Assembly: GCA_023384095.1 (NCBI GenBank) | Contig: JAHDXT010000001.1 | Location: forward strand, 62,001 to 126,000 | Direction of reading: 5' to 3' | Length of the DNA: 64,000 bases | From: Hyphomicrobiaceae bacterium | GTDB lineage: Bacteria; Pseudomonadota; Alphaproteobacteria; Rhizobiales; Hyphomicrobiaceae | Shown here: one piece after another, positions 16,176 through 57,490 of the stretch | How positions within the stretch are numbered: position 1 is the first letter of the stretch | Layout: every line of letters starts with the position of its first letter | The notes under the pieces: model-generated | What the model was told of the DNA's origin: nothing | Database searches by the model: none | Seen by the model: the letters and a program-made list of their open reading frames with translations, nothing else | Program-made: the position numbers and the translations under genes

Positions 16176-16823
16176 ATGCCGCTGCGGAGTTTCTTTGCGT
16201 TTGTGACCAGCCTCCCGGTGCTGCTGCTGGCGCCGGCCATCGCCGCCGAGGCGGGCAAGTACGAGTTCCGCGTTACCGGTGTCTCGCGCGCGGATTCCCT
16301 GAATATCCGCGAGCGCGTCGAGGATCAGGCCAGCATCAGCGACGCTAAGATTCTGGGCCAGATTCCCGCCAACGAAGGCGGCGTGCTCGGTTCGGGCGCC
16401 AGCCTCAAGGTCGGCAGGGTGCGCTGGTTCGAGGTCCGCTACAAGGAGACGCGCGGCTGGGTCAACGGCCGCTACCTGGCGCCGGTCTCGCCCGAGCTCG
16501 GGAGCGAGCTCGACTCCAATCTGTTCTGCGCCGGCACCGAGCCGTTCTGGTCGCTGAAGGTCGCGGACGGCCTCGCCGAGGTGACCCAGCCCGATGCGCC
16601 GCCGGAGCGCTATGCCGTCGCTATCCGCGAGCCGTTCCAGGGTCGCGACGACGCGCTGGCGCTGCGGCTCGTCAGCGAGGAGGGACCCGAGATCAGCGCC
16701 CTCGTGCAGCACAGGGAGTGGTGCAGCGACGGCATGTCGGACCTCGACTACGCGTTCGAGGTCAGCATCGTCGGCCTCGACGGCGAACGTCGGCTGCGCG
16801 GCTGCTGCAGCCTGCTCAGGTAA
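16176..16823 (+). CDS. Secreted SH3-domain protein with COG3650-like C-terminus
   Basis: The 215-residue product starts MPLRSFFAFVTSLPVLLLAPAIA, a signal peptide. Residues about 30-110 look like a bacterial SH3 domain: YEFRVTGVSRADSLNIRERV, then VRWFEVRYKETRGWVNGRYL. The C-terminal part begins with FCAGTEPFWSLKV, the hallmark of the COG3650-like family, and holds cysteines in HREWCSDGMSDLDYAFEV and GCCSLL that could form disulfides. It may bind cell-wall or small ligands. The start at 16176 is preferred over 16101 because it begins the signal peptide; AGGAG lies 14 bases upstream. Confidence 0.75.
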   Translation: MPLRSFFAFVTSLPVLLLAPAIAAEAGKYEFRVTGVSRADSLNIRERVEDQASISDAKILGQIPANEGGVLGSGASLKVGRVRWFEVRYKETRGWVNGRYLAPVSPELGSELDSNLFCAGTEPFWSLKVADGLAEVTQPDAPPERYAVAIREPFQGRDDALALRLVSEEGPEISALVQHREWCSDGMSDLDYAFEVSIVGLDGERRLRGCCSLLR

Positions 16824-16962
16824 GGGCTCGACCGCAGCCCATCGCCGGAACATCGCTCGCCCGCCCTGCCTCACTGAGGCTGCGAAAACAGTTGACGCAC
16901 GCCCTTTCGACCGTGCTCAAATCACCAGACGAACAATCAATCCGAGTGGGAGGAAAACAACC

Positions 16963-18477
16963 ATGCTCAACCGATCGCTGCTCGCAGCGGCCATTCTCGC
17001 CTCGGTCGCCGCTGCCCCCGTGCAGGCGGCGAAGAAGGACAACTCGGTCCGCTTCGCCTACGACCAGGTGCTGGAGAACATCGACCCCTATTTCAACAAC
17101 GTCCGCCTCGGCGTCATCATGAGCCACGCAGTCTGGGATACGCTCATCTATCGCGATCCCAACTCCAACGAGTACAAGCCGGGCCTCGCGACCTCCTGGA
17201 AGTGGATCGACGACCGGACGCTGGAGCTGGAGCTGCGCCAGGGCGTCAAGTTCCACAACGGCGAAGCCTTCGACGCCGACGATGTGGTCTACACCCTGAA
17301 CTTCGCCTCCGACCCTGCCAACAAGGCAACGGCCCAGCAGAACATCAGCTGGGTGGAGAAGGCGGAGAAGGTCGAACAGTACAAGGTGCGGATCAGGACC
17401 AAGCGTCCGTTCCCGGCTGCCATCGAATATCTCGCCGGCCCGATCCCGATGCACCCGAACGAGTACTACGCCACGGCCGGACCCAAGGGGATGAACGAGA
17501 AGCCGGTCGGCACCGGACCCTACAAGGTCACCGAGCACGTCGTCGGCAAGGTGATCCGGCTCGAGGCCAACAAGGACTATTGGGCGAGCGCGCCGAAGCC
17601 GAAGGCCACGATCGAGAGGATCGAGGTCCGCATGATCCCCGACCGGCAGACGCAGGTCGCCGAGATGCTTTCCGGCGGGCTCGACCTGATCATGAACGTG
17701 CCGGTCGAGCAGGCCGAGCAGCTCAAGGCGGCGCCGCACCTGGCGGTGACCTCCGGCCTGACCATGCGCATCGTCTTCATCCTGTTCAATTCCGGCCAGA
17801 ATGGCCCCAACGATGCGATCAAGGACGTGCGCGTGCGCCAGGCCATCGCGCATTCGATCGACAAGGTGACGATGGCCAGGCAGCTCGTCGGCGAGCAGGC
17901 ACGGGTGATCGAGACGATCTGCTTCCCGACCCAGTTCGGATGCACGGACGAGGGCGCCAGGCGCTATCCTTACGATCCCGCCAAGGCCAAGGCCCTGCTG
18001 GCCGAGGCCGGCTTCAAGGACGGCTTCGACCTCGAGTTCCTCGGCTACCGCGAGCGGCCGCAGACCGAGGCGATGGTCAACTACATGCGTGCCGCCGGCA
18101 TCCGCGCCAACCTCAAGTTCATGCAGTATGCCGCCATGCGCGAGCAGCACCGCGCCAACAAGGCGGCGGCCACTCACCAGACCTGGGGCTCGTTCAGCAT
18201 CAACGACGTGTCCGCCGGCCCGTCGGCCTACTTCAAGGGCATAGACGACGATATGATCAAGGATCCGGAGGTGATCGCGCAGTTCGAGAAGGGTGACACC
18301 AGCGTCGATCCCGCGGTGCGCAAGGAAGCCTACAAGCGCGGGCTGCAGCTCGTGAACGAGCGGGCCTACGCGGTGCCGCTCTACGCCCTGACGACCAACT
18401 ACGTCTCCGACAAGGACCTCCAGTTCAAGGCCTATCCCGACGAGCTGCCGCGGTTCTGGGAGATGAAGTGGAAGTGA
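16963..18477 (+). CDS. ABC transporter substrate-binding protein, dipeptide/oligopeptide type
   Basis: The 504-residue periplasmic protein has a signal peptide (MLNRSLLAAAILASVAAAPVQA) and the SBP_bac_5 fold: LATSWKWIDDRTLELELRQGVKFHNGE and DVVYTLNFA early, VGTGPYKV mid-protein and VRQAIAHSIDK later. These proteins deliver peptides, or in some cases opines, nickel or sugars, to a DppBCDF-type permease; the ligand here is unknown. GGGAGG precedes the ATG. A TTGACG hexamer at 16892 might be a -35. It is separated from the permease genes by a repeat-filled 265-base gap, which may lower downstream expression. Confidence 0.9.
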   Translation: MLNRSLLAAAILASVAAAPVQAAKKDNSVRFAYDQVLENIDPYFNNVRLGVIMSHAVWDTLIYRDPNSNEYKPGLATSWKWIDDRTLELELRQGVKFHNGEAFDADDVVYTLNFASDPANKATAQQNISWVEKAEKVEQYKVRIRTKRPFPAAIEYLAGPIPMHPNEYYATAGPKGMNEKPVGTGPYKVTEHVVGKVIRLEANKDYWASAPKPKATIERIEVRMIPDRQTQVAEMLSGGLDLIMNVPVEQAEQLKAAPHLAVTSGLTMRIVFILFNSGQNGPNDAIKDVRVRQAIAHSIDKVTMARQLVGEQARVIETICFPTQFGCTDEGARRYPYDPAKAKALLAEAGFKDGFDLEFLGYRERPQTEAMVNYMRAAGIRANLKFMQYAAMREQHRANKAAATHQTWGSFSINDVSAGPSAYFKGIDDDMIKDPEVIAQFEKGDTSVDPAVRKEAYKRGLQLVNERAYAVPLYALTTNYVSDKDLQFKAYPDELPRFWEMKWK

Positions 18478-18521
18478 GGTTAGCTGGCCGGGCGGCGGCG
18501 CGCCGCCCGCAACCAACGCCT

Positions 18522-18677
18522 CCGTCATCCCCGACAAGGGAGCGAAAGCGACCGCAGATCCGGGACCCAGAGGAAGAGTCGTCCATAGGACGCTGGATGT
18601 CGTGCCTTCGGCACTCCTTGCGCTGGATCCCGGATCTTCCTCGCCGCTGAAAAGCGGCTCGTAGTCCGGGATGACGG
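18522..18677. repeat. Palindromic element with 10-bp inverted ends between SBP and permease genes
   Basis: The element starts CCGTCATCCC and ends GGGATGACGG, exact inverted complements, and holds internal partial repeats (ATCCGGGACC and GGATCCCGGAT). It fills the gap between the binding-protein gene and the first permease gene. Similar ends occur at 5530-5573. A transcript would fold strongly, and the element could attenuate or stabilise the operon mRNA. Confidence 0.65.
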
Positions 18678-18742
18678 CAGGACATGAAGCGTTGTTTTCG
18701 AGGGGCTAGAGTACAGACCAGAATGCCGCGCCGGAGGCTGTC

Positions 18743-19660
18743 ATGCTGCTCTATGCACTGAAGCGGCTCGGGCTGGCCCTTCTCGTCGCCGCCTTCGTGT
18801 CGGTGGTGGCCTTCCTGCTGCTGCGCCTCTCGGGCGACGCAGCCCTCGCCATCGCCGGGGAGGGCGCCCGCGACGAGGACATCGCGCTCGTTCGCCGGAC
18901 CTACGGCCTCGACCGGCCCCTCATCGTGCAGTACGGCGACTGGCTGCTGCGGACGCTCGCCGGCGACCTCGGCCAGTCGCTCTATTTCAAGACCGACGTC
19001 GCCGCCCTGATCGCGGACAAGCTGCCGGTCACCTTCCTGATCGGCAGCTTTTCGCTGCTCTTCGCTCTGGCACTGTCCGTGCCGCTCGGCGTCCTCTCGG
19101 CGGTCTATGCCGGAAGCTGGATCGACCGCCTCGCGCTGGCGCTCGCGGTGGCGGGCCAGGCGCTGCCGAACTTCTTCTTCGCGCTCGTGCTCATGATGCT
19201 GTTCTCGATCACGCTGCGCTGGCTTCCGGTCTCGGGAAGCGACACCTGGGCGCATTTCGTGATGCCGACGATCGCGCTCGGCTACTACGTGACGCCACCG
19301 ATGATGCGCCTCGTGCGCGCCGGCATGGTCGAGGTGCTGGGCTCCGACTACATCCGCACGGCGCGCGCCAAGGGGCTGTCCCCGGCGAGCGTCGTCTTCA
19401 AGCACGGTCTGCGCAATGCGCTCGTCCCGGTGGTGGCGCTCGCCGCGGTCCAGCTCGGCTACCTGCTCGGCGGCTCCATCGTCATCGAGACGATCTTCGC
19501 GCTCGATGGCCTCGGCTACCTCGCCTACCAGTCGATCACGCACAAGGATTTCCCCGTCACGCAGGCCGTCCTGCTGCTGCTGGCGCTGATCTACGTGCTG
19601 CTGACGCTGGTCTCGGACCTGCTCAATGCGTTCCTCGATCCGCGCATGAGGGTGGCCTGA
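18743..19660 (+). CDS. ABC transporter permease, DppB type
   Basis: The 305-residue membrane protein begins MLLYALKRLGLALLVAAFVSVVAFLLLRLSGD, typical of DppB/GsiC permeases with the first transmembrane helix at the very start. The EAA-loop sequence YIRTARAKGLSPASVVFKHGLRNALVPVV contacts the ATPase subunits. Five to six further membrane spans are visible. Its ATGA overlap with the next gene points to coupled translation. It forms the inner-membrane channel with the DppC-type partner. Confidence 0.92.
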   Translation: MLLYALKRLGLALLVAAFVSVVAFLLLRLSGDAALAIAGEGARDEDIALVRRTYGLDRPLIVQYGDWLLRTLAGDLGQSLYFKTDVAALIADKLPVTFLIGSFSLLFALALSVPLGVLSAVYAGSWIDRLALALAVAGQALPNFFFALVLMMLFSITLRWLPVSGSDTWAHFVMPTIALGYYVTPPMMRLVRAGMVEVLGSDYIRTARAKGLSPASVVFKHGLRNALVPVVALAAVQLGYLLGGSIVIETIFALDGLGYLAYQSITHKDFPVTQAVLLLLALIYVLLTLVSDLLNAFLDPRMRVA

Positions 19661-20553
19661 TGAGCGACGCCGTCATCCTGCCCATCGAGACCGTCACCAC
19701 CAAGGTCGGCTCGCCCGCGGCCCGGATGGCGGCCAACCCTTCTGTGGTCACCGGGCTGCTGCTCGTCGGGGCGGTCGTGGCGATCGCGCTGCTGGCCCCG
19801 CTGCTGGCGCCGCACGACCCTTACGCGCAGGACCTCACCCGCCGGCTCATCCCGCCCATCTGGCACGACAAGGGGGTCTGGTTCAACCCGCTCGGCACCG
19901 ACAATCTCGGCCGCGACTACCTCTCGCGGGTGCTTTATGGCGCCCGCATCTCGCTGCTCATCGGCCTCTCGGTGATGGTGATCTCGGGCCTGATCGGCAC
20001 GGCGCTCGGCCTCGCCGCGGGCTATTTCGGCGGCCGGACGGATCTCGTCATCAGCTTCGTCATCACCGCCAGGCTGGCCATGCCGGTGGTGCTGGTCGCG
20101 CTGGCCGTCGTCGCCATGATCGGCGGCTCCCTGCCGGTCGTGATCCTCACGCTCGGCCTGCTCAAGTGGGACCGCTTCGCGGTCGTCATGCGCAGCGCCA
20201 CGCAGCAGGTGCGCTCGCTCGACTACGTGACAGCCGCCGAGGCGGCCGGCGCCTCGCGCAGCCGCATCGTGCTGGGCGAGATCCTGCCCAACGTCTTCCC
20301 GCACCTGATCGTCGTCGCGACAGTCGAAGCGGGCAGCGCCATCCTGCTCGAGGCGGCGCTGTCGTTTCTCGGACTCGGAGTGCAGCCGCCGCTGCCGTCG
20401 TGGGGGCTGATGATCGCGGAAGCCAAGAACCTGATGTTCTTCTCGTTCTGGCTGATCGCCATTCCCGGCACGGCGCTGGCGCTGCTGGTGCTCGGCATCA
20501 ACCTGCTCGGCGACGGCCTGCGCGACGTGTTCGCACCCGACGGGAGATCCTGA
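19660..20553 (+). CDS. ABC transporter permease, DppC type
   Basis: This 297-residue protein has the DppC layout: a short cytoplasmic N-terminus, a first helix (VVTGLLLVGAVVAIALLAPLL), the loop NPLGTDNLGRDYLSRVLYGARISLLIG, and the EAA motif region DYVTAAEAAGASRSRIVLGEILPN. ALSFLGLGVQPPLPSWG near the C-terminus is also characteristic. It pairs with the preceding permease. Its stop overlaps the start of the first ATPase gene in a TGATG junction. Confidence 0.92.
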   Translation: MSDAVILPIETVTTKVGSPAARMAANPSVVTGLLLVGAVVAIALLAPLLAPHDPYAQDLTRRLIPPIWHDKGVWFNPLGTDNLGRDYLSRVLYGARISLLIGLSVMVISGLIGTALGLAAGYFGGRTDLVISFVITARLAMPVVLVALAVVAMIGGSLPVVILTLGLLKWDRFAVVMRSATQQVRSLDYVTAAEAAGASRSRIVLGEILPNVFPHLIVVATVEAGSAILLEAALSFLGLGVQPPLPSWGLMIAEAKNLMFFSFWLIAIPGTALALLVLGINLLGDGLRDVFAPDGRS

Positions 20554-21569
20554 TGGCCTCAGCCGCGGCATCGGCGGCCGTGCTGGAGGTCGAGGACCTC
20601 TCGGTGACGATCCGCACGCCCGCCGGCCCGCTGCACGCCGTGCGCGGCGTCAGCTTCGACGTGCGCCGCGGCGAGACGGTCTGCCTCGTCGGCGAATCCG
20701 GCTGCGGCAAGTCGATGACGTCGCTCGCCATCATGAGCCTGCTGCCCGAGACCGCGACGCGACGCGCCCGCCGCCTCGCCTTCGCGGGCGCCGATCTCGC
20801 CGGCGCCACGGGCGCCGAGATCAACGCACTGCGCGGCAACCGCATGGCGATGATCTTCCAGGAGCCGATGACCGCGCTCAATCCGGCCTGGACCATCGGC
20901 GACCAGCTCGTCGAGGTCCATCGCCGCCACAAGCGGTCGGGACGCGCCGAGGCAAGGGAGCGGGCGGTCGATCTCCTGGGCAAGGTCGGCATCGCCTCGC
21001 CGGTCGAGCGGCTCGGGCAATACCCCCATCAGCTCTCGGGCGGCCTGCGGCAGCGCGTCATGATCGCCATGGCGCTGATGTGCGGCCCCGACCTCATCAT
21101 CGCCGACGAGCCGACCACCGCCCTTGACGTGACCATCCAGGCGCAGATCCTGCGCCTCCTGGCGGGATTGCAGCGCGAGCTCGGCATCGCGCTGCTGCTC
21201 ATCACGCACGACCTCGGCATCGTGGCGCGCATCGCCGACCGGGTGCACGTCATGTATGCCGGCGCCATCGTGGAGCGCGCGACGGCGGCGGAGCTCTTCG
21301 CGCGCCCTTGCCATCCCTATACCCGCGGCCTGCTCTCCTGCCTGCCCGCCCCGGGCGTCACCGAGGCCGGCACGCGCCTCGGCACGATCCCCGGCGTCGT
21401 GCCGAGCCTGATCGGCGGCATCGAGGGCTGCGCGTTCCGCTCCCGTTGCGAGCACGCGCGCGCCGGCTGCGCGCAGGCAGTGCCGGTCCGCCGCGCATCG
21501 GCCACTCACCATTACGTCTGCGTGGAGGAGGTCGCGGAGATGGCGGCACTCGGGGAGGCGACGGCGTGA
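20553..21569 (+). CDS. ABC transporter ATP-binding protein, DppD type
   Basis: The 338-residue ATPase shows Walker A GESGCGKS, the Q-loop in [17 protein letters not shown], the signature LSGGLRQRV, Walker [13 protein letters not shown] and the switch His in [10 protein letters not shown]. The C-terminal oligopeptide-transporter extension has [16 protein letters not shown], a cysteine arrangement that in some relatives binds an iron-sulfur cluster. The start is the ATG overlapping the DppC-type stop; the longer track ORF is run-through. It powers import with the following ATPase. Confidence 0.93.
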
Positions 21570-22537
21570 GCGCCCTCATCGAGGCTCGCGGGCTGTCGCG
21601 GACGTTCAGCGTCAGCCGTGGCCTGTTCGCGAGACGCGCCACGCTCAACGCAGTCGCAGGCGTCGACCTCGATGTCCACAAGGGCGAGGTGCTGGGCATC
21701 GTCGGCGAGTCGGGCTGCGGCAAGAGCACGCTCGCCCGCATGATCCTCGGCCTGCTGCCGCCGTCCTCCGGAACCGTCCGGCTTTCTGGCCGGGATATCC
21801 GGGTGATGCCCCGGCGCGCCCTCGCCCGACGCATGCAGCCGGTGTTCCAGGACCCCTACTCGTCGCTCAACCCGCGCCGGCGGGTTGCGTCCATCGTGGC
21901 GCTGCCGCTGGCGGTCCAGGGGTCGCATTCGGCCGAGGAGCGGCGCGCCCGGGCGATCGCGGCGCTCGACAAGGTCGGCCTGCCGGCGCGCTACGCCGAC
22001 AACTTCCCGAGCCAGCTCTCCGGCGGCCAGCGGCAGCGGGTGGCCATCGCGCGGGCCCTCGTCACGGAGCCGGAGATCGTCGTCTGCGACGAGCCGACGT
22101 CCGCTCTCGACGTCTCCGTGCAGTCGCAGATCCTCAACCTGCTGATCGACTTGAAGGAGAACCTCGGGCTGACCTACGTCTTCATCAGCCACAACCTGGC
22201 CGTCGTCGAGCACCTGGCGACGCGCGTCGCCGTCATGTACCTCGGCCGCATCGTGGAGCTCGGTGCGACAGCGGAGCTGTTCCGCAACCCTCGCCATCCC
22301 TATACGCAGGCGCTGCTGGCCTCCGTGCTCACGCCAGAGCCCGGCCTCGGCATCCCCGAGGCGCTGCTGGGGACGGCTTCTCCCGACCCCCTCAATGTGC
22401 CGGCCGGCTGCCCGTTCCACCCCCGCTGCCCGCAGGCGGTGGAGATGTGCCGCGGCGCCGTCCCGAAGCCGGTCGATACAGCGGCCGGTTTTGCCGCCTG
22501 CCATCTCGTCACGGACGCTGCGAGCCGGGCAGCCTGA
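21566..22537 (+). CDS. ABC transporter ATP-binding protein, DppF type
   Basis: The 323-residue protein starts at GTG, overlapping the previous stop in a GTGA junction. It has Walker [11 protein letters not shown]-loop FQDPYSSLNPRRRV, signature LSGGQRQRVAIARAL, Walker B IVVCDEPTSALDVS and switch FISHNLAVVEHL. The DppF-type C-terminus carries CPFHPRCPQAVEMC. As usual for DppF, it directly follows the DppD-type gene. It completes a five-gene importer; no hydrolase or regulator lies in the operon to reveal the substrate. Confidence 0.93.
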   Translation: MSALIEARGLSRTFSVSRGLFARRATLNAVAGVDLDVHKGEVLGIVGESGCGKSTLARMILGLLPPSSGTVRLSGRDIRVMPRRALARRMQPVFQDPYSSLNPRRRVASIVALPLAVQGSHSAEERRARAIAALDKVGLPARYADNFPSQLSGGQRQRVAIARALVTEPEIVVCDEPTSALDVSVQSQILNLLIDLKENLGLTYVFISHNLAVVEHLATRVAVMYLGRIVELGATAELFRNPRHPYTQALLASVLTPEPGLGIPEALLGTASPDPLNVPAGCPFHPRCPQAVEMCRGAVPKPVDTAAGFAACHLVTDAASRAA

Positions 22538-23530: not shown

Positions 23531-24419
23531 AGGCCGCGCCTTTGCCAGACTTCTGTTTGCTCCGCGCGGCGCGAGGATCGATGGGCGCCGGCACGGTGCT
23601 CTCGAGCCGCGTCCTGAGCTCCTGGAATATGGCGCGAACCCGGCTTGCATTGCGGCCGAGGTCGTGGCGGCCGTACCGGGAGGCCGAGCGGACGTCGATC
23701 TGCGCGCTCTGCTCGTCGCCCTGGATGCGGATGACGACGTCGTCGTAGAACCCGATGATCGGCGTGCGGTCGACAGCCTCGATCAGTCCGGGCCGGTCGA
23801 GGTCATCGCCGGGCGGCGTCTCCGCGACGACTTGGAAATTCAGACGACGGACGGCATCTGCTGCGAGCTCGAATGCCTCGTCGGCCGATCGGGCGATCAG
23901 GAACGGCTGCAGGTCCGGATAGGCGATCGCCTGCATCTCGGCAAAAGTCTCGCCGGGGTAAGCCTGGGGGTTGGCGCCGGGGCCGCGCAACCGCGCCAGG
24001 GCGACGAGCGGCGGCGGGGCGTGAGGGTCGGTCGTCACGTCGTTGATCGGCGGCAGGCTTCTCAATGCCGGCAGATAGATGGCGGGCCATGCGAACAGAG
24101 CCAGGCTCGCGAGCATGGCGACGAACGCCATGCCCGCGCCCGCCCTGCCGGTAAGCCAGATCCGCACGGCGGCGGCGAGGCCGAGCAGCAGCGCCGCGGC
24201 GGCGCCGGCGAGCCCGGCCTTGATCACGTTGAGCAGGACGGGAGTCGGCAGGCCCAGCAGCCGGTGCAGGGCGATGGCGACGATCACCAGCGCACCGCTG
24301 AAGAGGGCCAGTCGGAGGCTCCAGACCGCTGAGAATTCAGGCCGTTGCAGGGCGGTATCCATCATCCGGCGCACGGCATTGCGGGAGAGCTCCGGGCTGA
24401 ACACCCTCACCGGCTGCAT
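23463..24419 (-). CDS. Membrane protein with DUF1499 domain
   Basis: The 318-residue protein starts with a soluble segment, then three predicted membrane helices (about residues 32-130; for example LFSGALVIVAIALHRLLGL and AGMAFVAMLASLALFAWPAIY). The C-terminal DUF1499 domain contains AIAYPDLQPFLI, GFYDDVVIRIQ and IDVRSASRYGRHDLGRNASRVRAI, the family's most conserved part. Function is unknown. The last 30 residues are low-complexity and basic (SKQKSGKG, RGRAGRRSGG) and overlap the convergent MBL gene, so the tail may be a late extension. Confidence 0.82.
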   Translation of the reverse strand: MQPVRVFSPELSRNAVRRMMDTALQRPEFSAVWSLRLALFSGALVIVAIALHRLLGLPTPVLLNVIKAGLAGAAAALLLGLAAAVRIWLTGRAGAGMAFVAMLASLALFAWPAIYLPALRSLPPINDVTTDPHAPPPLVALARLRGPGANPQAYPGETFAEMQAIAYPDLQPFLIARSADEAFELAADAVRRLNFQVVAETPPGDDLDRPGLIEAVDRTPIIGFYDDVVIRIQGDEQSAQIDVRSASRYGRHDLGRNASRVRAIFQELRTRLESTVPAPIDPRAARSKQKSGKGAASKQPKGDDRGRAGRRSGGDRGR

Positions 24420-24518
24420 GGGTGGCCCTCGCGCAGCGGGCAGAGGAACTCTTTGTCAGACACTCGCGTCATGGCTAATGATACCGCAGATCCGAGCCAA
24501 GCACAGGGCAGGCGCACC

Positions 24519-25901
24519 ATGACCCTTTCCAATTTCGCCATGCGGGACGTCGAGACGATCCTGCACCCGGCCACCAACCTCGCACTGCACCGCACGACCG
24601 GTCCTCTGGTGACCGACCGCGCGGAGGGGATCTACGTCTGGGATACGGACGGCAAGCGCTACATCGAGGGGCTCGCCGGGCTGTGGTGCACCGGGCTCGG
24701 CTACGGCAACCAGGAGCTGGTCGAAGCCGCCCGCGAGCAGATGAGCAAGCTCTCCTTCACGCATCTCTTCGGCGGGCGCAGCCACGAGCCGGCGATCGCG
24801 CTCGCCGAGAAGCTGAAGGAGCTGGTGCCGGCGCCGGCGTCGAAGATTTTCTTCACGAGCTCGGGCTCGGAGGCGAACGACACCCAGATCAAGCTCGCCT
24901 GGTACTACAACAACGCCCGCGGCCTGACGAAGAAGAAGAAGATCATCAGCCGCATGCGCGCCTATCACGGCGTGACGATCGCGACCGCCAGCCTTACCGG
25001 TCTGCCCGTGTTCCACACCGACTTCGACCTCCCGATGGCGCGCGTGCTGCATACCGACTGCCCACATCACTACCGGGGCGCCGAGCCGGGGGAGACGGAG
25101 GAGGAGTTCGCGACACGCCTCGCCAACAGCCTGGATGAGATGATCGAGCGCGAGGGGCCAGACACCGTCGCCGCGTTCATCGCCGAGCCGGTGATGGGCG
25201 CCGGCGGCGTCGTCGTTCCGCCGCGCACTTACTTCGAGAAGATCCAGGCGGTGCTGCGGCGCCATGACGTGGCGATGATCGCCGACGAGGTGATCTGCGG
25301 CTTCGGGCGGACCGGCAACTGGTTCGGCTCGCAGACCTACGGGATCATGCCCGACACCATGACCATGGCCAAGGCGATCACGTCGGCGTACATGCCGCTC
25401 GGCGCCGTCACCGTCAGCGAGCCGGTCTACCAGGCGCTGCTCGACGAGAGCAGGAAGCTCGGGGTGTTCGCGCACGGGTTCACCTATTCGGGCCATCCTG
25501 TGTCGTGCGCCGTTGCCGTGAAGACCCTCGAGATCTACGAGCGCATCGACATCGTCCGGCACGTGCAGCGCGTCGCCCCGGTGTTCCAGATGCGCCTGGA
25601 GGCCCTGCGCGATCACCCGCTGGTCGGTGAGACGCGCGGCGTCGGGCTCATCGGCGGCGTCGAGCTGGTGAAGGACAAGGCGGGCAAGCAGAGCTTCGAC
25701 GCACGCCAGGGCGTGGGCTCGAAATTGGTCGCCTTGGCGCAGGAGGAGGGCCTCATCTGCCGCGCCGTCGCCGGCGACACCATCGCACTCTGTCCGCCGC
25801 TGATCATCGACGGGGCCGAGATCAACCAGATGTTCGACACCTTCGTCCGCGCGCTCGAGCGGGTCGAGGCCTGGGTCACATCGGAGGGCCTGCGCGGCTG
25901 A
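24519..25901 (+). CDS. Class III omega-aminotransferase, SpuC-like
   Basis: The 460-residue PLP enzyme shows GLWCTGLGYGNQELVEAA, TSSGSEANDTQIKLAWYY, IADEVICGFGRTGNWFGSQ, TMAKAITSAYMPLGAV with the Schiff-base lysine, and HGFTYSGHPVSCAVA. These fit the pyruvate-dependent omega-transaminases acting on putrescine, beta-alanine or similar amines. Start 24519 is preferred for GGGCAGG upstream and because family members start close to LSNFAMRDV; 24471 is possible. It lies 5 kb from xsc, but nothing here shows it to be a taurine transaminase. Confidence 0.88.
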   Translation: MTLSNFAMRDVETILHPATNLALHRTTGPLVTDRAEGIYVWDTDGKRYIEGLAGLWCTGLGYGNQELVEAAREQMSKLSFTHLFGGRSHEPAIALAEKLKELVPAPASKIFFTSSGSEANDTQIKLAWYYNNARGLTKKKKIISRMRAYHGVTIATASLTGLPVFHTDFDLPMARVLHTDCPHHYRGAEPGETEEEFATRLANSLDEMIEREGPDTVAAFIAEPVMGAGGVVVPPRTYFEKIQAVLRRHDVAMIADEVICGFGRTGNWFGSQTYGIMPDTMTMAKAITSAYMPLGAVTVSEPVYQALLDESRKLGVFAHGFTYSGHPVSCAVAVKTLEIYERIDIVRHVQRVAPVFQMRLEALRDHPLVGETRGVGLIGGVELVKDKAGKQSFDARQGVGSKLVALAQEEGLICRAVAGDTIALCPPLIIDGAEINQMFDTFVRALERVEAWVTSEGLRG

Positions 25902-29264: not shown

Positions 29265-31019
29265 TCAATCGACGTTGGTGTGCTTGTACTTGTCGAGCAG
29301 CCGCCTCGGCTTCTTGAGCGCATCGCGGCGGAACGGGTCGCCGAGCTCCTGCGTCACCATCACCTCGAGCACGGTCGTCTTGCCGTGCTTCATCTGGGCG
29401 TCGACGGCCTTCTCGAGCGCCTCGCCCACGTCGCCGAGGTTGCGTACGGTGACGGCCTCGGCGCCGAGCGATCGGGCCACGTCCGCCCAGCAGGGGTTCT
29501 TCAGGTTCACGCCCTCGAAGCGGTAGTTGTAGAAGTCGACCTGGTTCTTCTTCTCCGCGCCCCACTGCTCGTTGTGGAACACGACCGCGGTGACGGGGAT
29601 GTCCTCGCGAACGCAGGTCAGAATCTCGCCGAAGCTCATGCCCCAGGCGCCGTCGCCGACGTAGGCGACCGCCGGGCGATCGGGGGCGGCCGCCTTGGTG
29701 CCGATGATGGTCGGCAGCGCGTAGCCGCAGTTGCCGAAGCTCATGGCCGCGAACATGCTGGGCGACTGGCTGAAGCGCAGGTAGCTGTTCGACACCGAGC
29801 AGATGTTGCCGATGTCGGTCGAGACCATGGCGTTTTTCGGCATGGCCTTCTCGAGCTCGCGCAGCATCTGGCGCGGATGCATGCTCGGCGAATTCTTAGA
29901 AACCTCGAGGCTCCAGGGGTCGCGCTCGTGCGTCCACTCGGAAAGCTCGGCCTCCCAGGCCGCCTTCTCCGCGTTCACCTTCTTCAGGCGCTCGGCGGCG
30001 TTCTTGCGCGCAACGGGATCGCGGTTCGCAAGCCGGTGATGCAGCGCCTTGGCCGCGGCCTTCGCGTCGCCCACGACGCCGACCGAGATCTGCTTCACCA
30101 GCCCCAGCATGCGGTGGTCGGTGTCGACCTGGATGATCCTGGCGTTCTTCGGCCAGTAGTCGAGGCCGTGCTGCGGCAGCGTGCCGAACGGCCCGAGCCG
30201 GGTGCCGAGCGCCAGCACGACGTCGGCCTCGGCGATGATCTTCATGCCGGCCTTGGAGCCCTGATAGCCGAGCGGGCCGCACCACAGCGGATGATCGGCG
30301 GGGAAGCTGTCGTTGTGCAAATAGCTGTTGACGACCGGCATCTGCAGGTATTCGGCGAGCGCCTTCGCCTCCTCCGTGCCGCCGGAGAAGATGACACCGC
30401 CTCCGGCCACCATGACCGGGAACCTGGCCTTGGCCAGCAGCTCGGCGGCCTCGTCCAGCGCCTCGTCGGCGCCGGGGCCGCGGGCGATCCTCTTCGGCAC
30501 CGGAATGGCGTAGTCGGCCTCGCCATAGAAGTTGTCGCGCGGGATGTTGAGCTGCGTCGGGCCGCGCTCGCTCATCGCCATGTCGAAGCAGCGGGCCGTC
30601 AGCTCCGCCATGCGGTCCTGGCGCGAGACGTGGGCCTGATACCTGGTGATCCTGGAGAAGATCGGAAGCTGCTCCGTCTCCTGGAAGCCGCCGAGGCCGA
30701 TGGTGCCCGAACCCGTTTCAGGCGTGATCACGACAACCGGCGAGTGCGCCCAATAGGCGGCGGCCGTGGAGGTGACGAAGTTGGTCACGCCCGGGCCGTT
30801 CTGCGCGATGCACACCCCGTGCCGCCCGGAGACGCGGCTGTAGCCGTCGGCCATGTGGCCGGCGCCCTGCTCGTGAACGGTCGGGATGAAACGGATGCCT
30901 GCAGACGGAAACAGGTCGAGCGCATCCATGAACGCCGAGCCGACGATGCCGAACACGTCGGTGACGCCATGGGCAACCAGAGTTTCGACGAAGGCTTCGC
31001 TCGGAGTCATTCTCGTCAT
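29265..31019 (-). CDS. xsc: Sulfoacetaldehyde acetyltransferase Xsc
   Basis: Xsc is a thiamine-diphosphate enzyme that converts sulfoacetaldehyde and phosphate to acetyl phosphate and sulfite, the C-S bond-cleaving step of taurine, isethionate and sulfoacetate breakdown. The 584-residue protein begins MTRMTPSEAFVETLVAHG and has FGIVGSAFMDALDLFPSAGI and VHEQGAGHMADGYSRVSGR, which I take as Xsc-specific among acetolactate-synthase relatives. The ThDP site GDGAWGMSFGEI...NEQW lies near residues 430-470. AGGGAGG sits 5 bases upstream of the chosen ATG. The IclR-type gene lies 108 bases upstream on the same strand. Confidence 0.93.
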   Translation of the reverse strand: MTRMTPSEAFVETLVAHGVTDVFGIVGSAFMDALDLFPSAGIRFIPTVHEQGAGHMADGYSRVSGRHGVCIAQNGPGVTNFVTSTAAAYWAHSPVVVITPETGSGTIGLGGFQETEQLPIFSRITRYQAHVSRQDRMAELTARCFDMAMSERGPTQLNIPRDNFYGEADYAIPVPKRIARGPGADEALDEAAELLAKARFPVMVAGGGVIFSGGTEEAKALAEYLQMPVVNSYLHNDSFPADHPLWCGPLGYQGSKAGMKIIAEADVVLALGTRLGPFGTLPQHGLDYWPKNARIIQVDTDHRMLGLVKQISVGVVGDAKAAAKALHHRLANRDPVARKNAAERLKKVNAEKAAWEAELSEWTHERDPWSLEVSKNSPSMHPRQMLRELEKAMPKNAMVSTDIGNICSVSNSYLRFSQSPSMFAAMSFGNCGYALPTIIGTKAAAPDRPAVAYVGDGAWGMSFGEILTCVREDIPVTAVVFHNEQWGAEKKNQVDFYNYRFEGVNLKNPCWADVARSLGAEAVTVRNLGDVGEALEKAVDAQMKHGKTTVLEVMVTQELGDPFRRDALKKPRRLLDKYKHTNVD

Positions 31020-31127
31020 GGGCGCCTCCCTGGAGCTTCGCCGGCGCCGGCACGGGCCGACGGCATGGAACTGTCTCAGAATACAAGACAACTCGTCTCG
31101 GTTAGTGGCATGCGACCACAGATGGAG

Positions 31128-31982
31128 TCAATCACCGACTCGTGCGGGAGCAGCTCTCCTGCGGGCGGGTCGGCCGGCTGGCCGCCCGGTGGGACCCGCA
31201 GCATCGCGTCCTCCGGTCCACGCCCGGGCCATGGCGCGGGCAGCCTCATCGAGCCGCGGCACGAAGCCGATCGCCCGCTGTAGATCCAGGCGCGGCGCCG
31301 GTCCGTGCACGGCGAGGGCCGCCAGCACGCGGCCGTGGCTGTCCGCGACGGGGACCGCGACGCCGATGATCCCTATCGTGAACTCCTGGTTGTTGACCGC
31401 ATAGCCTCGCGTCCGGACCTGAGCGAGATCGGCCTCGAGAGCGGCGACGCGCGTGATCGTGTGCTCGGTATGCGCCTTGAGCTCGATGCTGCCGAGCAGC
31501 CTCGCGCGCACGGACTCGTCGAGATGGGCCAGCATCACCTTGCCGCCGGAGGTGCAGTGGGCCGGCACCCGGCTGCCCGCCTGCAGATGCACGCGCAGCG
31601 ACCAGTGGCACTCGATGCGCTCGAGGTAGACGAACTGCAGCCCATCCAGCACGCCGATGTTGCAGGTTTCCTCGAGGTCGTCGACGAGCACCTGCAGGAT
31701 GGCGCGGACCGGCGCCGACTGGTTGTGGGTCTGCAGTGCGTTGAGGGCCAGCGTGGACAGGCGCGGACCGACCGAGAACCGGTCGCGCGAGGGATCGCGC
31801 ACGATGAGCCCCGCGGCTTCGAGCTGCACGAGCACGCGATGGACGGTCTGCCGCGGCAGGTCGAGGCGCGCGCTGAGATCGGGAAGCCCGATCGGCTGCG
31901 ACTGCGCGATGATCGCCTCGAGGACGGCGAGCGCCTTGTCGAGCGCCGACCCGCGTTCCTGGACTGCACCGCGCTCCCGCAT
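31128..31982 (-). CDS. IclR-family transcriptional regulator, probable sulfonate regulator
   Basis: The 284-residue protein has an N-terminal winged helix (KALAVLEAIIAQSQPIGLPDLSARLDLPRQTVHRVLVQLEAAGL) and the IclR effector domain with NIGVLDGLQFVYLERIE, PAHCTSGGKVMLAHL and GYAVNNQEFTIGIIGVAVPV. The described sulfoacetate cluster of Cupriavidus necator also carries an IclR-type gene, SauR, from memory. It lies between xsc and the divergent dehydrogenase gene, so it probably regulates both. The C-terminal 30 residues are low-complexity Arg/Ala/Pro, an odd tail. Start 31982 is the Met just before the HTH region. Confidence 0.88.
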   Translation of the reverse strand: MRERGAVQERGSALDKALAVLEAIIAQSQPIGLPDLSARLDLPRQTVHRVLVQLEAAGLIVRDPSRDRFSVGPRLSTLALNALQTHNQSAPVRAILQVLVDDLEETCNIGVLDGLQFVYLERIECHWSLRVHLQAGSRVPAHCTSGGKVMLAHLDESVRARLLGSIELKAHTEHTITRVAALEADLAQVRTRGYAVNNQEFTIGIIGVAVPVADSHGRVLAALAVHGPAPRLDLQRAIGFVPRLDEAARAMARAWTGGRDAAGPTGRPAGRPARRRAAPARVGD

Positions 31983-32113
31983 GGCTCTGTCATTTCTCCA
32001 CCCGGCTGACCAGACCGCGCGGGCGACGGCGGGTCGATGCCCTGAACCACAGTTATCCGAAGTTTCTTCGCCGCGCAAAAGAGCGATGGATCAAATCAGG
32101 CTCACACGATCGT

Positions 32114-32176
32114 GTTCGGGCCGTTCCCCGGAACCGGAACGAGCAGGTTGACCGCACGGCCCGTGGCGTACAGAAT
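32114..32176 (+). promoter_or_regulatory. Predicted promoter with adjoining dyad operator for the dehydrogenase-ligase genes
   Basis: TTGACC (32148) and CAGAAT (32171) are spaced by 17 bases, about 37 bases upstream of the ATG at 32213. Just before the -35 lies the near-palindrome GTTCCCCGGAAC (32123-32134), flanked by GTTCGG (32114) and a further GGAAC (32136). This dyad is a good candidate for the IclR-type regulator site. Confidence 0.55.
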
Positions 32177-32212
32177 GAGACAAGGTATCCCGTTTATTTT
32201 CATAGAGTGCAG

Positions 32213-33661
32213 ATGATGCAGGACACGCCCGCAAAGAGCAAGCCCGGCGAAACCTCCGTCCCGCCGGACCCTGTACCGGCTCTCGTGGAGCGTGCGCGCG
32301 CAGCCATGGCCATCTACGCGCACCAGATCGAGACCGGCGGCCAGGCGCGGATCGACGAGGCGGTGACCGCGCTCGCCTGGTCGCTCTACAAGCCCGAGAA
32401 CGCCCGGCGGCTGGCCGAGATCGCCGTCGAGGTGACGGGCATCGGCGAGGTCGAGAGCAAGGTCGTCAAGAACCAGCGCAAGACGTTCGGCACGCTGCGC
32501 GACCTGCTGCGCGTGAAATCCACCGGCATCATCGAGGAGGTCCCGGAGAAGGGCCTCGTCAAGTACGCCAAGCCCGTCGGCGTCGTGGCGGCGATCTCGC
32601 CCTCGACGAACCCGTCGGCCACCCCGGTCAACAAGGCGATGATGGCGCTCAAGGGCGGCAACGCCATCATCATCGCGCCGCCGCCGACGGCCTGGGGAGC
32701 GTCCAGGCCGACCGTCGACCTCATGCGCGCGGAGCTGAGAAAGATCGGCCTGCCGGAAGACCTGGTGCAGATCCTGCCGGCGCCTGTAACCCGCGAGGCG
32801 ACCACGCGGCTGATGGAGCTGTCGGACCTCGTGGCCTGCACGGGCAGCCAGGTCAACGTGCGCCAGTCCTACAGGTCGGGCAAGCCGGCGCTGGGCGTCG
32901 GCCTCGGAAATGTGCCGGTGATCGTCGATGACACGGCCGACCTCGACGATGCCGCGCACAAGATCATGCTGTCGAAGACGTTCGACCACGCCACGAGCTG
33001 CTCGTCCGAGAACGCGCTCGTGGTCGTCGATGCCGTGTACGATCGGGCCATCGCGGCGCTGGAGAAGCAGGGCGGCTATCTTGCGACGTCCGAGGAGCGC
33101 GAGCGCATCGTCACGCGGCTGTGGCAGGACGGCAAGCTCAACCGGAGCGTCATTGCGCAAGGTCCGGAGGCGCTCATCGATGTGTTCGAGCTCGGACCCA
33201 AGGCTCAAGGCTGCAGCTTCGTCATGGCCGAGGAGAAGGGGATCGGCAAGGCTCATCCGCTGTCGGGGGAGAAGCTGTCGCTGGTGCTGACGGTTTATCG
33301 CGCCAGGGACTTCCAGCATGCCAAGCGCATCGTGCGCGACATCCTCGACTATCAGGGCAAGGGCCACTCCTGCGGCATTCACACGATGACGCCGGAGCAC
33401 GCCCGCGAGCTGGCCGAGGACATCGACGTCGTGCGTGTGCTGGTGAACCAGGCGCACACCTTCGGCAACGGCGGCGGGTTCAATAACGGATTGCCGTTCA
33501 CGCTCTCGATGGGCTGCGGCACCTGGCAGGCCAACTCGCTCTCCGACAACCTCAACTGGCGCTGCTTCGTCAACATCACACACCTCGTCACGACCATCCC
33601 GGAGGACAAGCCGGAGGAAAGCGAGCTGTTCGGCGGCTACTGGGCGAAGTTCGGGAAGTGA
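32213..33661 (+). CDS. sauS: CoA-acylating sulfoacetaldehyde dehydrogenase, SauS-like
   Basis: The 482-residue protein belongs to the acetaldehyde-dehydrogenase (acylating) branch of ALDHs: YAKPVGVVAAISPSTNPSATPVNKAMMALKGGNAIIIAP, catalytic Cys in FDHATSCSSENALVVV, and AHTFGNGGGFNNG. SauS interconverts sulfoacetyl-CoA and sulfoacetaldehyde with NAD(P)H. Substrate is inferred from xsc and the IclR gene next door; acetaldehyde or another small aldehyde remains possible. GTG 32207 and ATG 32216 are alternative starts; none has a strong ribosome site. The two ligase genes follow on the same strand after a 133-base repeat-filled gap. Confidence 0.78.
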   Translation: MMQDTPAKSKPGETSVPPDPVPALVERARAAMAIYAHQIETGGQARIDEAVTALAWSLYKPENARRLAEIAVEVTGIGEVESKVVKNQRKTFGTLRDLLRVKSTGIIEEVPEKGLVKYAKPVGVVAAISPSTNPSATPVNKAMMALKGGNAIIIAPPPTAWGASRPTVDLMRAELRKIGLPEDLVQILPAPVTREATTRLMELSDLVACTGSQVNVRQSYRSGKPALGVGLGNVPVIVDDTADLDDAAHKIMLSKTFDHATSCSSENALVVVDAVYDRAIAALEKQGGYLATSEERERIVTRLWQDGKLNRSVIAQGPEALIDVFELGPKAQGCSFVMAEEKGIGKAHPLSGEKLSLVLTVYRARDFQHAKRIVRDILDYQGKGHSCGIHTMTPEHARELAEDIDVVRVLVNQAHTFGNGGGFNNGLPFTLSMGCGTWQANSLSDNLNWRCFVNITHLVTTIPEDKPEESELFGGYWAKFGK

Positions 33662-33668
33662 CTTAGTT

Positions 33669-33780
33669 CCCTCTCCCCAGCTGCGTTGGGGTGGGGGTTG
33701 GGGTGAGGGGCAGAGGCTTGTGCTGCAGCCTGTTGCTGCCCCTCACCCCGACCCTCTCCCCGCACGCGGGGAGAGGGAGA
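33669..33780. repeat. REP-like palindromic repeat between dehydrogenase and ligase genes
   Basis: Two arms, CCTCTCCCC with GGGGTGGGGG and CCCTCACCCC with CCGCACGCGGGGAGAGGG, form a large hairpin filling the gap. The 41 bases at 33737-33777 recur with one mismatch at 47003-47043. It may act as an mRNA processing or attenuation element between the two parts of the operon. Confidence 0.65.
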
Positions 33781-33794
33781 AAAGAGGACAGCGA

Positions 33795-34928
33795 ATGAAC
33801 TTCGAGGAATACGCCGCCAAGCCACTGCTCAGGGCTGTCGGGATCGAGACACCAAGGAGCGGGCTCGCCACCACGCCGGACGAGGCCGAGTCAGTCGCCC
33901 GCGAGATCGGCCCCTGCGTGGTCAAGGCGCAGGTGCCGACCGGCAAGCGCGGCAAGGCGGGCGGCATCAAGCTGGCGGCGAGCCCGGCGGAGGGCCGCGC
34001 CCATGCCGGGCGCATCCTGGGCATGACCATCGGCGAGCACAGGGTGGAGCGGCTTCTGGTCGAAGCGCAGGTGCCGATCGCCAAGGAGATGTACGCCGCA
34101 GTCCTCAACGACCCCGATTCGAAAGGTCCGCTGCTGCTGTTCTCGGCCGAGGGCGGCATGGACATCGAGGAGATCGCGGAGCAGCACCCGGGCGCGCTGC
34201 TGCGCCTTCCCGTCGACATTCGCAAGGGCCTCGACCGCGGTGCGCTCGCCGCCGCGCTGCCGAAGGAGCTGCCGGCCGACCGCGCGGCGCTGATCGACAC
34301 GCTGGCGCGGCTCTACGATGCCTACGCCGAGAACGATGCCGAGCTGATCGAGATCAACCCGCTGGTGCTGACTCGGGATGGCAAGCTCGTCGCGCTCGAC
34401 TGCAAGCTCGTGATCGACGACAGCGCGATTCCCCGGCACGAGGCGCTCGCCAAGTCCGGCACTCCCGACAAGGCGACCGAGTTGGAGGCGAAGGCCAAGC
34501 CCCTCGGGCTCAAGTTCATCGAGCTCGACGGCAACGTCGGCGTGCTGGCCAATGGCGCCGGCCTGACCATGACCTCCATGGACGCCGTGCGCCATTTCGG
34601 CGGCGAGCCGGCCAACTTCCTCGAGATCGGCGGCGAGAGCTACACCAAGGCCAAGCCGGCGCTCGAGCTTGTGCTCGCCAACCCACGGGTGAAGGCGCTG
34701 CTGGTCAACTTCTGCGGCGCCTTCGCGCGCACGAACGTGATGGCCGAGGGCGTCGTCACCGCTTGGCAGGAGCTGAAGCCCGATATCCCCATCGTCTTCA
34801 CCATCCACGGCACCAGCGAGGAGGAGGCGATCGCGCTGGTGAGGGATCGCCTCGGCATCGAGCCCTACGACCTGATGGACGATGCCGTGAGAGCGGCGGT
34901 GGCGGCCGCGACGGGGGCATCGCAATGA
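33795..34928 (+). CDS. ADP-forming acyl-CoA ligase, beta (ATP-grasp) subunit; proposed sulfoacetate-CoA ligase
   Basis: The 377-residue protein resembles succinyl-CoA synthetase beta: MNFEEYAAKPLLRAVGIETP, VVKAQVPTGKRGKAGGIKL, LIEINPLVLTRDGKLVALDCKL in the ATP-grasp domain (about residues 1-230), then NFLEIGGESYTKAKPALEL of the ligase domain. It would charge an acid with CoA using ATP, giving ADP. The sequence is too diverged from standard SucC to be the TCA enzyme. Context with sauS and xsc points to sulfoacetate; SqwKL-type sulfoacetate-CoA ligases are the closest described analogue I know. It overlaps the alpha gene by ATGA. Confidence 0.72.
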   Translation: MNFEEYAAKPLLRAVGIETPRSGLATTPDEAESVAREIGPCVVKAQVPTGKRGKAGGIKLAASPAEGRAHAGRILGMTIGEHRVERLLVEAQVPIAKEMYAAVLNDPDSKGPLLLFSAEGGMDIEEIAEQHPGALLRLPVDIRKGLDRGALAAALPKELPADRAALIDTLARLYDAYAENDAELIEINPLVLTRDGKLVALDCKLVIDDSAIPRHEALAKSGTPDKATELEAKAKPLGLKFIELDGNVGVLANGAGLTMTSMDAVRHFGGEPANFLEIGGESYTKAKPALELVLANPRVKALLVNFCGAFARTNVMAEGVVTAWQELKPDIPIVFTIHGTSEEEAIALVRDRLGIEPYDLMDDAVRAAVAAATGASQ

Positions 34929-35800
34929 TCGTGCGCGGCGGCGAATCCGTGCTCGTGATGGGCATCACGGGCAAGCAGGGCACGTTCTGGGCCGACAAGA
35001 TGCGGGCCTACGGCACGCGGATCATCGGCGGCACGAACCCGAAGCGGGCCGGCGAGACGCATCTGGAGCGGCCGGTGTGGGCGACTGGCACCGATGCAGC
35101 CAAGGAAACGAGGATCGACTGCGCGGTGATGTTCATCCCCCCGTTCGGGGTCAAGGCCGCCGCCCTCGACGCCATCGAGGCGGGCATCGGCAAGATCGTC
35201 TGCCTGACCGAGCACGTGCCGGTGCACGATACGATGTACCTGCTGGCGGCGGCGCGCGAGCGCGGAGCCCAAGTCATCGGCCCGAATACGGCCGGGCTGG
35301 TGACCACCGGCGAATGCTTCGTCGGCTTCATGCCGGCCTTCAACGAGCGCGTATTCCGGCCGGGCGAGGTGGGCGTCATCTCGCGGTCGGGCTCGCTCGG
35401 AACGCTGCTCTGCCTCAACCTAGTGCAGGCGGGGCTCGGCATCTCCTCGTTCGTCGGCATCGGCGGCGACCCGATCATCGGCACGACGACGCGCGACGCG
35501 CTGGAGAGCCTCGACCGCGACCCGCGAACGAAAGCCATCGCGCTGGTCGGTGAGATCGGCGGCTCCATGGAGGAGCAGGCGGCCGAGTACGCCCGCACCA
35601 TGACGAAACCCGTCGCCGCCTTCATTGCCGGCGCCGCCTCCCCGCCCGGCAGGAAGATGGGTCACGCCGGCGCCATCGTCATGGGCAACCGGGGCTCCTA
35701 TGCCGCCAAGAAGTCGGCGCTCGAGGCGGCTGGCGTCAGCGTATGCGCGACGCCCAACGGAGTACCCGAGGTGCTCAGGGGGCGGCTTGCATCGGCCTGA
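34925..35800 (+). CDS. ADP-forming acyl-CoA ligase, alpha (CoA-binding) subunit; proposed sulfoacetate-CoA ligase
   Basis: The 291-residue protein matches succinyl-CoA synthetase alpha: VLVMGITGKQGTFWADKMRAYGTRIIGGTNP is the CoA-binding Rossmann domain, GPNTAGLV and GVISRSGSLGTLL follow, and GRKMGHAGAIVMG contains the phosphorylated active-site His. FVGIGGDPIIGTTTRDAL is a typical SucD-type motif. With the beta subunit it forms a complete two-subunit ligase. Active-site residues are intact. The pair directly follows the SauS-like gene, so it probably makes the CoA ester that SauS reduces, or runs in reverse to make ATP. Confidence 0.74.
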   Translation: MIVRGGESVLVMGITGKQGTFWADKMRAYGTRIIGGTNPKRAGETHLERPVWATGTDAAKETRIDCAVMFIPPFGVKAAALDAIEAGIGKIVCLTEHVPVHDTMYLLAAARERGAQVIGPNTAGLVTTGECFVGFMPAFNERVFRPGEVGVISRSGSLGTLLCLNLVQAGLGISSFVGIGGDPIIGTTTRDALESLDRDPRTKAIALVGEIGGSMEEQAAEYARTMTKPVAAFIAGAASPPGRKMGHAGAIVMGNRGSYAAKKSALEAAGVSVCATPNGVPEVLRGRLASA

Positions 35801-35877: not shown

Positions 35878-36591
35878 ATGCCCGAGCGCCCGATCGAGCT
35901 CTACTACTGGCCGACGCCCAACGGCCACAAGATCACGATCATGCTGGAGGAGTGCGGGCTGCCGTACGAGGTCAGGTATATCAACATCATGCGCGGCGAC
36001 CAGTTCGCGCCCTCGTTCCTGGCCATCTCGCCCAACAACCGCATGCCCGCCATCGTCGATCCCCACGGCCCGGGCGGGGAGCCGATCTCGGTGTTCGAAT
36101 CCGGCGCCATCCTCCAGTACCTCGGGCGCAAGACCGGCCGGTTCTATCCCGAGGACGAGCGCGCCCGCGTCGAGGTCGAGCAGTGGCTGTTCTGGCAGAT
36201 GGCGAACCTCGGGCCCATGGCCGGCCAGTGCCATCACTTCCGCAACTACGCCAAGCGGAAGATCGTCTATGCCATCGACAGGTACGTGAACGAGGTCAAC
36301 AGGCTCTATGGCGTGATGGACACCCGGCTCGAAGACAGGCCGTACCTCGCGGGCGAATACTCGATCGCCGACATGGCCTGCTATCCCTGGGTCAGGCCCT
36401 ACAGGAACCAGGGCCAGGATCTGGCCGAGTTCCCCAACCTCGAGGGGTGGTTCAAGCGCATTCACGATCGCGCTGCGGTCGCCAGGGCAGTGACGGTGGG
36501 CGCCGAGGAGCGCGAGAAGTGGAATCTCGCCAAGGACAAGGATGCGCAGAAGATCCTGTTCGGCCAGCGGGCGCGGAGGAGGACGGGTTAG
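35878..36591 (+). CDS. Glutathione S-transferase, YfcG / Nu-class-like
   Basis: The 237-residue protein matches YfcG-type disulfide-bond reductases: IELYYWPTPNGHKITIMLEECGLPYEV at the start, FLAISPNNRMPAIVDPHGPGG for glutathione contacts, and SVFESGAILQYLGRKTG. The all-helical C-domain includes YLAGEYSIADMACYPWV. Such enzymes reduce disulfides or peroxides with glutathione. It lies 77 bases after the ligase alpha gene on the same strand, so it may belong to that transcript, but no role in sulfonate breakdown is known to me. Confidence 0.87.
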   Translation: MPERPIELYYWPTPNGHKITIMLEECGLPYEVRYINIMRGDQFAPSFLAISPNNRMPAIVDPHGPGGEPISVFESGAILQYLGRKTGRFYPEDERARVEVEQWLFWQMANLGPMAGQCHHFRNYAKRKIVYAIDRYVNEVNRLYGVMDTRLEDRPYLAGEYSIADMACYPWVRPYRNQGQDLAEFPNLEGWFKRIHDRAAVARAVTVGAEEREKWNLAKDKDAQKILFGQRARRRTG

Positions 36592-47002: not shown

Positions 47003-47043
47003 TGCCCCTCACACCGACCCTCTCCCCGCACGCGGGGAGAGGG
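47003..47043. repeat. REP-like repeat, second copy of the 33737-33777 sequence
   Basis: The 41 bases match 33737-33777 with one mismatch and include the hairpin CCCTCTCCCCGCACGCGGGG. A weaker related arm (CCATTGCTGGGGAGAG) lies at about 46925. It fills the gap between petC and mtnP. Confidence 0.7.
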
Positions 47044-57250: not shown

Positions 57251-57490
57251 GTAATTCCGATCCTGTCAGGGAGAGCCAGGCCGGGCGGAACCCCGCATGG
57301 CACGCTGCGCATCTAAGCCGGACCGGCCCCGTTGAAAAGGCCCCCAGTGCCGCAGATCAGCGCCGCTCCACCGCCCTGTGCTGATTTTCGCGGTGCGCGC
57401 GGGGCGAGCAGGGCCTAGAAAGAATGAAAACATGCGGGCGCCTTGTTCCGGGTGCGTGCGGCAAAAGCAATCGAGATGGAGGAAGCGCCA

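Follow-up and report, generated by a model that had tools for sequence, protein, structure and literature searches.

A probable sulfoacetate catabolic cluster joining an ADP-forming SauCD-type ligase, SauS and Xsc in a Hyphomicrobiaceae bacterium

Introduction

Sulfoacetate arises in the metabolism of sulfoquinovose and of taurine. The SauRSTU system of Cupriavidus reportedly includes an IclR-type regulator and has Xsc downstream. In Cupriavidus necator H16, the ligase SauT forms AMP, and SauU is a transporter of the major facilitator superfamily (MFS) (Weinitschke et al. 2010; PMC12625764), and SauR has been characterized as a sulfoacetate-inducible system (PMC7057948). SauCD is known from Bilophila wadsworthia, where isethionate and a glycyl-radical lyase follow downstream (PMC12890257); the source for Bilophila SauSCD is Liu et al. 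2023 (doi 10.1016/j.jbc.2023.105010), represented here by the accounts in PMC12625764 and PMC12890257. A sauSCD cluster with a tripartite tricarboxylate transporter (TTT) was reported in 2025 for a metagenome-assembled genome (MAG) of a sponge symbiont, OTU3, which also encodes xsc and pta (PMC12625764), and SqwD–SqwKL belongs to a sulfo-transketolase variant (Chu et al. 2023, as cited in PMC11489063). Here we describe a gene cluster from a 64,000-nucleotide stretch of a Hyphomicrobiaceae genome of 4.58 Mb in 93 contigs (the window; G000:C88:62001-126000 in our numbering), in which xsc and a regulatory gene lie beside sauS and a two-subunit ligase pair, and which very probably constitutes a catabolic SauCD–SauS–Xsc module for sulfoacetate.

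Results

Gene calls and profile searches bore out the gene content, order and strands given by the initial annotation: xsc and an IclR-family gene on the minus strand point away from sauS and the ligase pair on the plus strand. The xsc gene (29265..31019, minus, in an open reading frame extending to 31091) encodes the thiamine diphosphate (ThDP) enzyme sulfoacetaldehyde acetyltransferase, which scored 920.8 bits against TIGR03457 (cut-off 676.4), covered positions 1–579 of the 579-position profile and keeps the conserved motifs GDGA and QWGAE. The product of sauS (32207..33661, plus), a coenzyme A (CoA)-acylating sulfoacetaldehyde dehydrogenase, reached 734.3 bits against NF047625 (cut-off 600), so that both proteins fall within their equivalog families; a TSCSSE motif is present in 55 of 56 SauS homologues. 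The genes sauC (33795..34928; PF08442, PF00549) and sauD (34925..35800; PF02629, PF00549, PF13607), both on the plus strand, encode the beta (ATP-grasp) and alpha subunits of a proposed ADP-forming sulfoacetate–CoA ligase, with the sauC stop and the sauD start sharing an ATGA overlap. No relatives of Xsc were found in the PDB at E 1e-80. Contig C5 carries a second Xsc-like ThDP enzyme (L223, 8902-10590), which at 416 bits lies under the Xsc cut-off.

In the predicted pathway, SauC/SauD would activate sulfoacetate with CoA and ATP via a phosphohistidine, yielding ADP and phosphate, SauS would reduce sulfoacetyl-CoA to sulfoacetaldehyde, and Xsc would convert sulfoacetaldehyde and phosphate to acetyl-phosphate and sulfite. 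Import by a TTT system, conversion of acetyl-phosphate to acetyl-CoA by phosphate acetyltransferases (Pta) and oxidation of sulfite by a SoeABC-type sulfite dehydrogenase would be provided from outside the window. Substrate and direction are here predicted from family membership and gene neighbourhood; the route itself, already proposed in the initial annotation as an ADP-forming ligase with SauS and Xsc, is matched by recurring neighbourhoods, including sets that add Pta, TTT and a SoeABC-type molybdoenzyme.

The identity of the ligase is central to this pathway. Family models name both subunits succinate–CoA ligase, yet the scores stay just below the cut-offs: 356.3 bits against 370 and 335.5 against 375.55 for SauC with the SucC models, and 314.9 against 336 for SauD with the SucD model. 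Because of these scores, and because a separate SucC on another contig reaches 531 bits, well over the cut-off, the two-subunit ligase of the window is not the enzyme of the tricarboxylic acid (TCA) cycle. Nor did it behave as a malate–CoA ligase (MtkAB), scoring 274.8 bits against 604 for NF010647. The window SauC is 53–60% identical to the genes on the Azospirillum, Indioceanicola and Rhodococcus plasmids described below, as against about 41% or less to SucC and malate–CoA ligase in comparisons with the same records, and its closest named relatives among the 84,980 species genomes scanned belong to Hyphomicrobium and other Hyphomicrobiaceae.

A short motif separates the two kinds of beta subunit. 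The SauC clade carries the signature NFCGA[FIV] (NFCGAF in the window) in the C-terminal CoA-ligase domain, where solved succinyl-CoA synthetases (SCS) and the SucC proteins of these genomes have NIFGGI. It is in this domain of the beta subunit that succinate binds in the mammalian enzyme. NFCGA was invariant in 31 SauC proteins gathered via SauS neighbourhoods or plasmids; the independent evidence comes from L047-L101 and L225-L230 only, as the signature counts for L122-L201 are circular, that scan having taken NFCGA as its seed. SauD carries the phosphohistidine motif GHAGAI in 32 of 35 aligned proteins and GHAG in all 35, and the window pair is thus a two-subunit SCS-type ligase with a phosphohistidine motif, encoded with SauS as expected of SauCD. 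That the pair serves another acid, such as succinate, malate or 3-sulfopropionate, with xsc an accidental neighbour, would agree with the family names and with scores falling only slightly short; we nevertheless consider this very improbable given the changed motif, the separate true SucC, the recurrence of SauS and xsc beside the ligase and the fact that a 3-sulfopropionate route would not provide Xsc with a substrate. A further succinate–CoA-ligase-like pair, with NVGGGM at the same position, is found on G000:C76 (L222, 1144-5061) and is followed by a 573-aa protein.

We then consider the linkage of these genes within the order. SauS exceeded its cut-off in 51 of 398 genomes, giving 52 loci that were taken with up to 10 kb on each side, some of them on short contigs. 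SauC and SauD stood beside SauS at 29 of the 52, and within ~10 kb of these 29 we found xsc in 15 cases, a TTT transporter in 16 and a Pta relative in 8. A single xsc randomly placed in a 4 Mb genome would be expected there in ~0.5% of cases, and the nearness of xsc to SauS–SauCD exceeds chance, although the binomial estimate takes no account of relatedness between the genomes. The arrangement of the window, with xsc and an IclR gene divergent from SauSCD, is repeated at L074, L077, L078, L079 and L080. This repetition bears on the idea that xsc serves taurine or isethionate use independently and that its position next to sauSCD has no functional meaning: while xsc lies on the opposite strand, the genome has a taurine transporter and a class III aminotransferase gene is only ~3 kb away, the aminotransferase is not conserved beside other clusters and the window xsc is the sole xsc above the TIGR03457 cut-off genome-wide, making such a coincidence improbable.

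Where SauS and SauCD are unlinked, the genome usually still has both. SauS was present in all eight related genomes checked, six of which showed no SauS adjoining SauCD, and SauC was found elsewhere in G274, G057, G094 and G006 (58–69%). In three Hyphomicrobiaceae loci (L127, L129 and L145), SauCD lies apart from SauS, which is elsewhere in each genome, and has housekeeping-type neighbours, a polyprenyl synthetase in L127 and L129 and RimK in L145. Conversely, three genomes of one family (L053, L057 and L060) have SauS without a nearby ligase, SauC again being elsewhere in each genome, and a GAF/PAS/guanylate-cyclase protein close to SauS on the same strand.

Both partner enzymes show lineage structure. 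In the SauS tree, a group of 42, which includes the window SauS, comprises all SauCD-linked SauS and nine without SauCD beside them. A separate clade of 13 loci holds four of the five SauS found beside AMP-forming ligases, and within the order all SauS of this latter kind fall outside the SauCD-linked group. These five loci (L067, L086, L089, L091 and L096), with a SauT-like arrangement, were identified among ten nearby long genes tested from the 23 SauS loci without SauCD; at several more such loci, a gene of like length occupies the same place but was outside the ten. At the window, no AMP-forming SauT (PF00501) stands beside SauS, the SCS-type pair being there in its place, but an IclR-family regulator is present as in SauRSTU. 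The Xsc proteins adjoining SauSCD are of two lineages, 67–78% or ~46% identical to the window Xsc, even among close relatives, a pattern suggesting more than one joining of Xsc to SauSCD.

Fuller gene sets were found on plasmids. Those of Indioceanicola profundi and Azospirillum brasilense carry genes for IclR, a Pta-type enzyme, TTT, SauS, SauC, SauD, a three-subunit SoeABC-type molybdopterin oxidoreductase and xsc, and appear near-complete; a Rhodococcus plasmid has SauSCD with pta, xsc, an NAD(P) transhydrogenase and an MFS transporter. By association, these sets would supply the remaining steps of the pathway. The SauC copies of Azospirillum and Indioceanicola are labelled sucC. In the scan of 84,980 species genomes, which used NFCGA as its seed and included many short contigs, we found up to 410 relatives, and among the best 80 of these SauS was nearby in 73, xsc in 21, TTT in 38 and Pta in 12. 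A phylum sample of 399 genomes yielded 2, including that of the window itself, and the numbers point to carriers making up ~0.5% of species or less. The linkage of the ligase to SauS and xsc recurs in records from alpha-, beta- and gammaproteobacteria as well as from Rhodococcus. In a MAG titled Bordetella parapertussis (L198), whose title may be a misassignment, several TctC-like genes and additional copies resembling SauD lie near SauSCD.

For the steps missing from the window there are good candidates elsewhere in the genome. A TTT system on contig C83 has TctA and TctC ~76% identical to those of the TTT adjoining SauSCD in a Hyphomicrobium MAG (L085, the same as that of L122), whereas the remaining TctA copies of the genome that were compared reach at most 38% identity to L085 TctA; the C83 system is likely the SauXYZ-type importer of the module. 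Contig C82 encodes SoeABC relatives (66, 65 and 55% identity) together with a Pta exceeding the TIGR00651 cut-off, and a second Pta-type gene adjoins acetate kinase on C26. The initial annotation had stated that no transporter, pta or sulfite dehydrogenase is present in the window. Indeed, we found no Pta, TTT or SoeABC relatives within it, but the statement fails for transporters, since the window encodes an oligopeptide-type ATP-binding cassette (ABC) transporter (16594-22537; SBP_bac_5, two BPD_transp_1 and an ABC ATPase with oligo_HPY) and a DctP-type binding protein (57443-58510). We found no evidence tying either to the sulfoacetate cluster, and the DctP-type protein does not significantly resemble the product of the DctP gene adjoining SauD in L079. 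On the contig of the window, a TTT system at a distance of ~31 kb from xsc was likewise rejected, being just 31–34% like cluster-linked TTT permeases, in comparison with ~76% for the C83 system. We also rejected the class III aminotransferase (24345-25901) as a cluster member acting on taurine: the family it matches best is that of a general aminotransferase, and the gene is not conserved around the other clusters. As for a glutathione S-transferase (GST) gene at 35878-36591, most relatives have no close counterpart there, only distant GSTs, and it is probably not a module member; an exception to the pattern is a Hyphomicrobiales MAG (L133) with a GST-fold gene directly after SauD.

Several observations weigh against the catabolic module. 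No xsc was found within ~10 kb at 14 of the 29 SauS–SauCD loci, some of them on short contigs, and three genomes of the order (G073, G030 and G283) lack a SauC-type ligase although their SauS falls in the same group. In the window's own genome, the transporter, Pta and SoeABC candidates are unlinked to the cluster, and the TauABC taurine ABC transporter encoded there implies that Xsc may also receive taurine-derived input. Finally, SauSCD is reversible in principle, and enzymes of the same classes, SqwD and SqwKL, run toward sulfoacetate. In one alternative, SauS and SauCD would work in reverse, turning sulfoacetaldehyde from taurine or another sulfonate via sulfoacetyl-CoA into sulfoacetate with a gain of ATP, and Xsc would be a competing cleavage branch. 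The reported direction of SqwD–SqwKL and the presence of TauABC speak for this, but the recurrence of TTT importer and IclR genes beside SauSCD and of Pta and SoeABC in the complete sets does not, and diverting carbon to sulfoacetate would squander a substrate available to Xsc; we regard a reversed flow as unlikely and retain the catabolic module.

The regulation of the module can be predicted in outline. The probable SauR-like, IclR-family regulator (31128..32078, minus, start codon uncertain; PF01614, PF09339) is encoded between xsc and sauS and is probably a sensor of the pathway's substrate or of one of its intermediates; comparable IclR genes lie alongside many SauSCD clusters. The divergent intergenic region between the xsc–IclR side and sauS (32079..32206) contains a single sigma-70-like site at 32148-32176 and, with arms at 32117-32124 and 32156-32163, an inverted repeat of 8 nt, a tentative candidate for an operator. 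Between sauS and sauC lies a very strong palindromic element (33662..33794) of two inverted repeats, 26 and 12 nt, with a predicted fold of about −96 kcal/mol across 133 nt. In many relatives the gap between sauS and sauC is just a few bases long, and a related half-copy is found at 47007-47027 of the window; the element is probably an interspersed repeat and no part of the pathway.

Discussion

The cluster combines known enzymes into a recurrent and widely misannotated variant pathway and is not a new kind of system. On balance, we favour the view that an aerobic SauCD–SauS–Xsc route has been overlooked in ~0.5% of sequenced prokaryote species under the name of succinate–CoA ligase, with a separate NFCGA ligase lineage marked by a substrate-site signature, a SauS lineage to match and Xsc joined to it from two lineages, and that it is one ATP equivalent cheaper than activation by SauT. 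The route predicts which bacteria can mineralize sulfoacetate to sulfite and acetyl-CoA for one ATP equivalent rather than two, and the motif offers a testable way to tell sulfoacetate–CoA ligases by sequence from succinyl-CoA synthetases, two groups that annotation pipelines currently mix up. The initial annotation did not know the combination of a one-ATP ligase with Xsc to be characterized. Taken alone, the one-ATP idea is no novelty, and a MAG encoding sauSCD, xsc and pta was reported in 2025; we found no paper testing SauCD together with Xsc in a literature that covered works other than the primary SauCD and SqwKL papers.

Compared with the known systems, the window shares SauS and the sulfoacetaldehyde intermediate with Cupriavidus SauRSTU, but has SauCD in the place of the AMP-forming SauT. 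The OTU3 cluster has a predicted function, and the placement of xsc inside its sau cluster is not stated (PMC12625764). HpfX–HpfYZ of Enterococcus gilvus represents the same enzyme classes as the window but is specific to 3-sulfopropionate and inactive with sulfoacetate (PMC11489063). We liken the window ligase to SqwKL and to Bilophila SauCD by their descriptions and not by sequence. SqwD–SqwKL similarly pairs a CoA-acylating dehydrogenase with an ADP-forming ligase on C2 sulfonates, but it runs toward sulfoacetate with a gain of ATP, and the account in PMC11489063, as far as it extends, describes no Xsc with it. According to the secondary accounts cited above, Bilophila SauSCD resembles the window in its ADP-forming two-subunit ligase and in a SauS working in the reductive direction, and Bilophila also has a TTT system. 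There, sulfoacetaldehyde is passed on to isethionate and the glycyl-radical lyase, whereas the cluster of the window is linked to Xsc instead.

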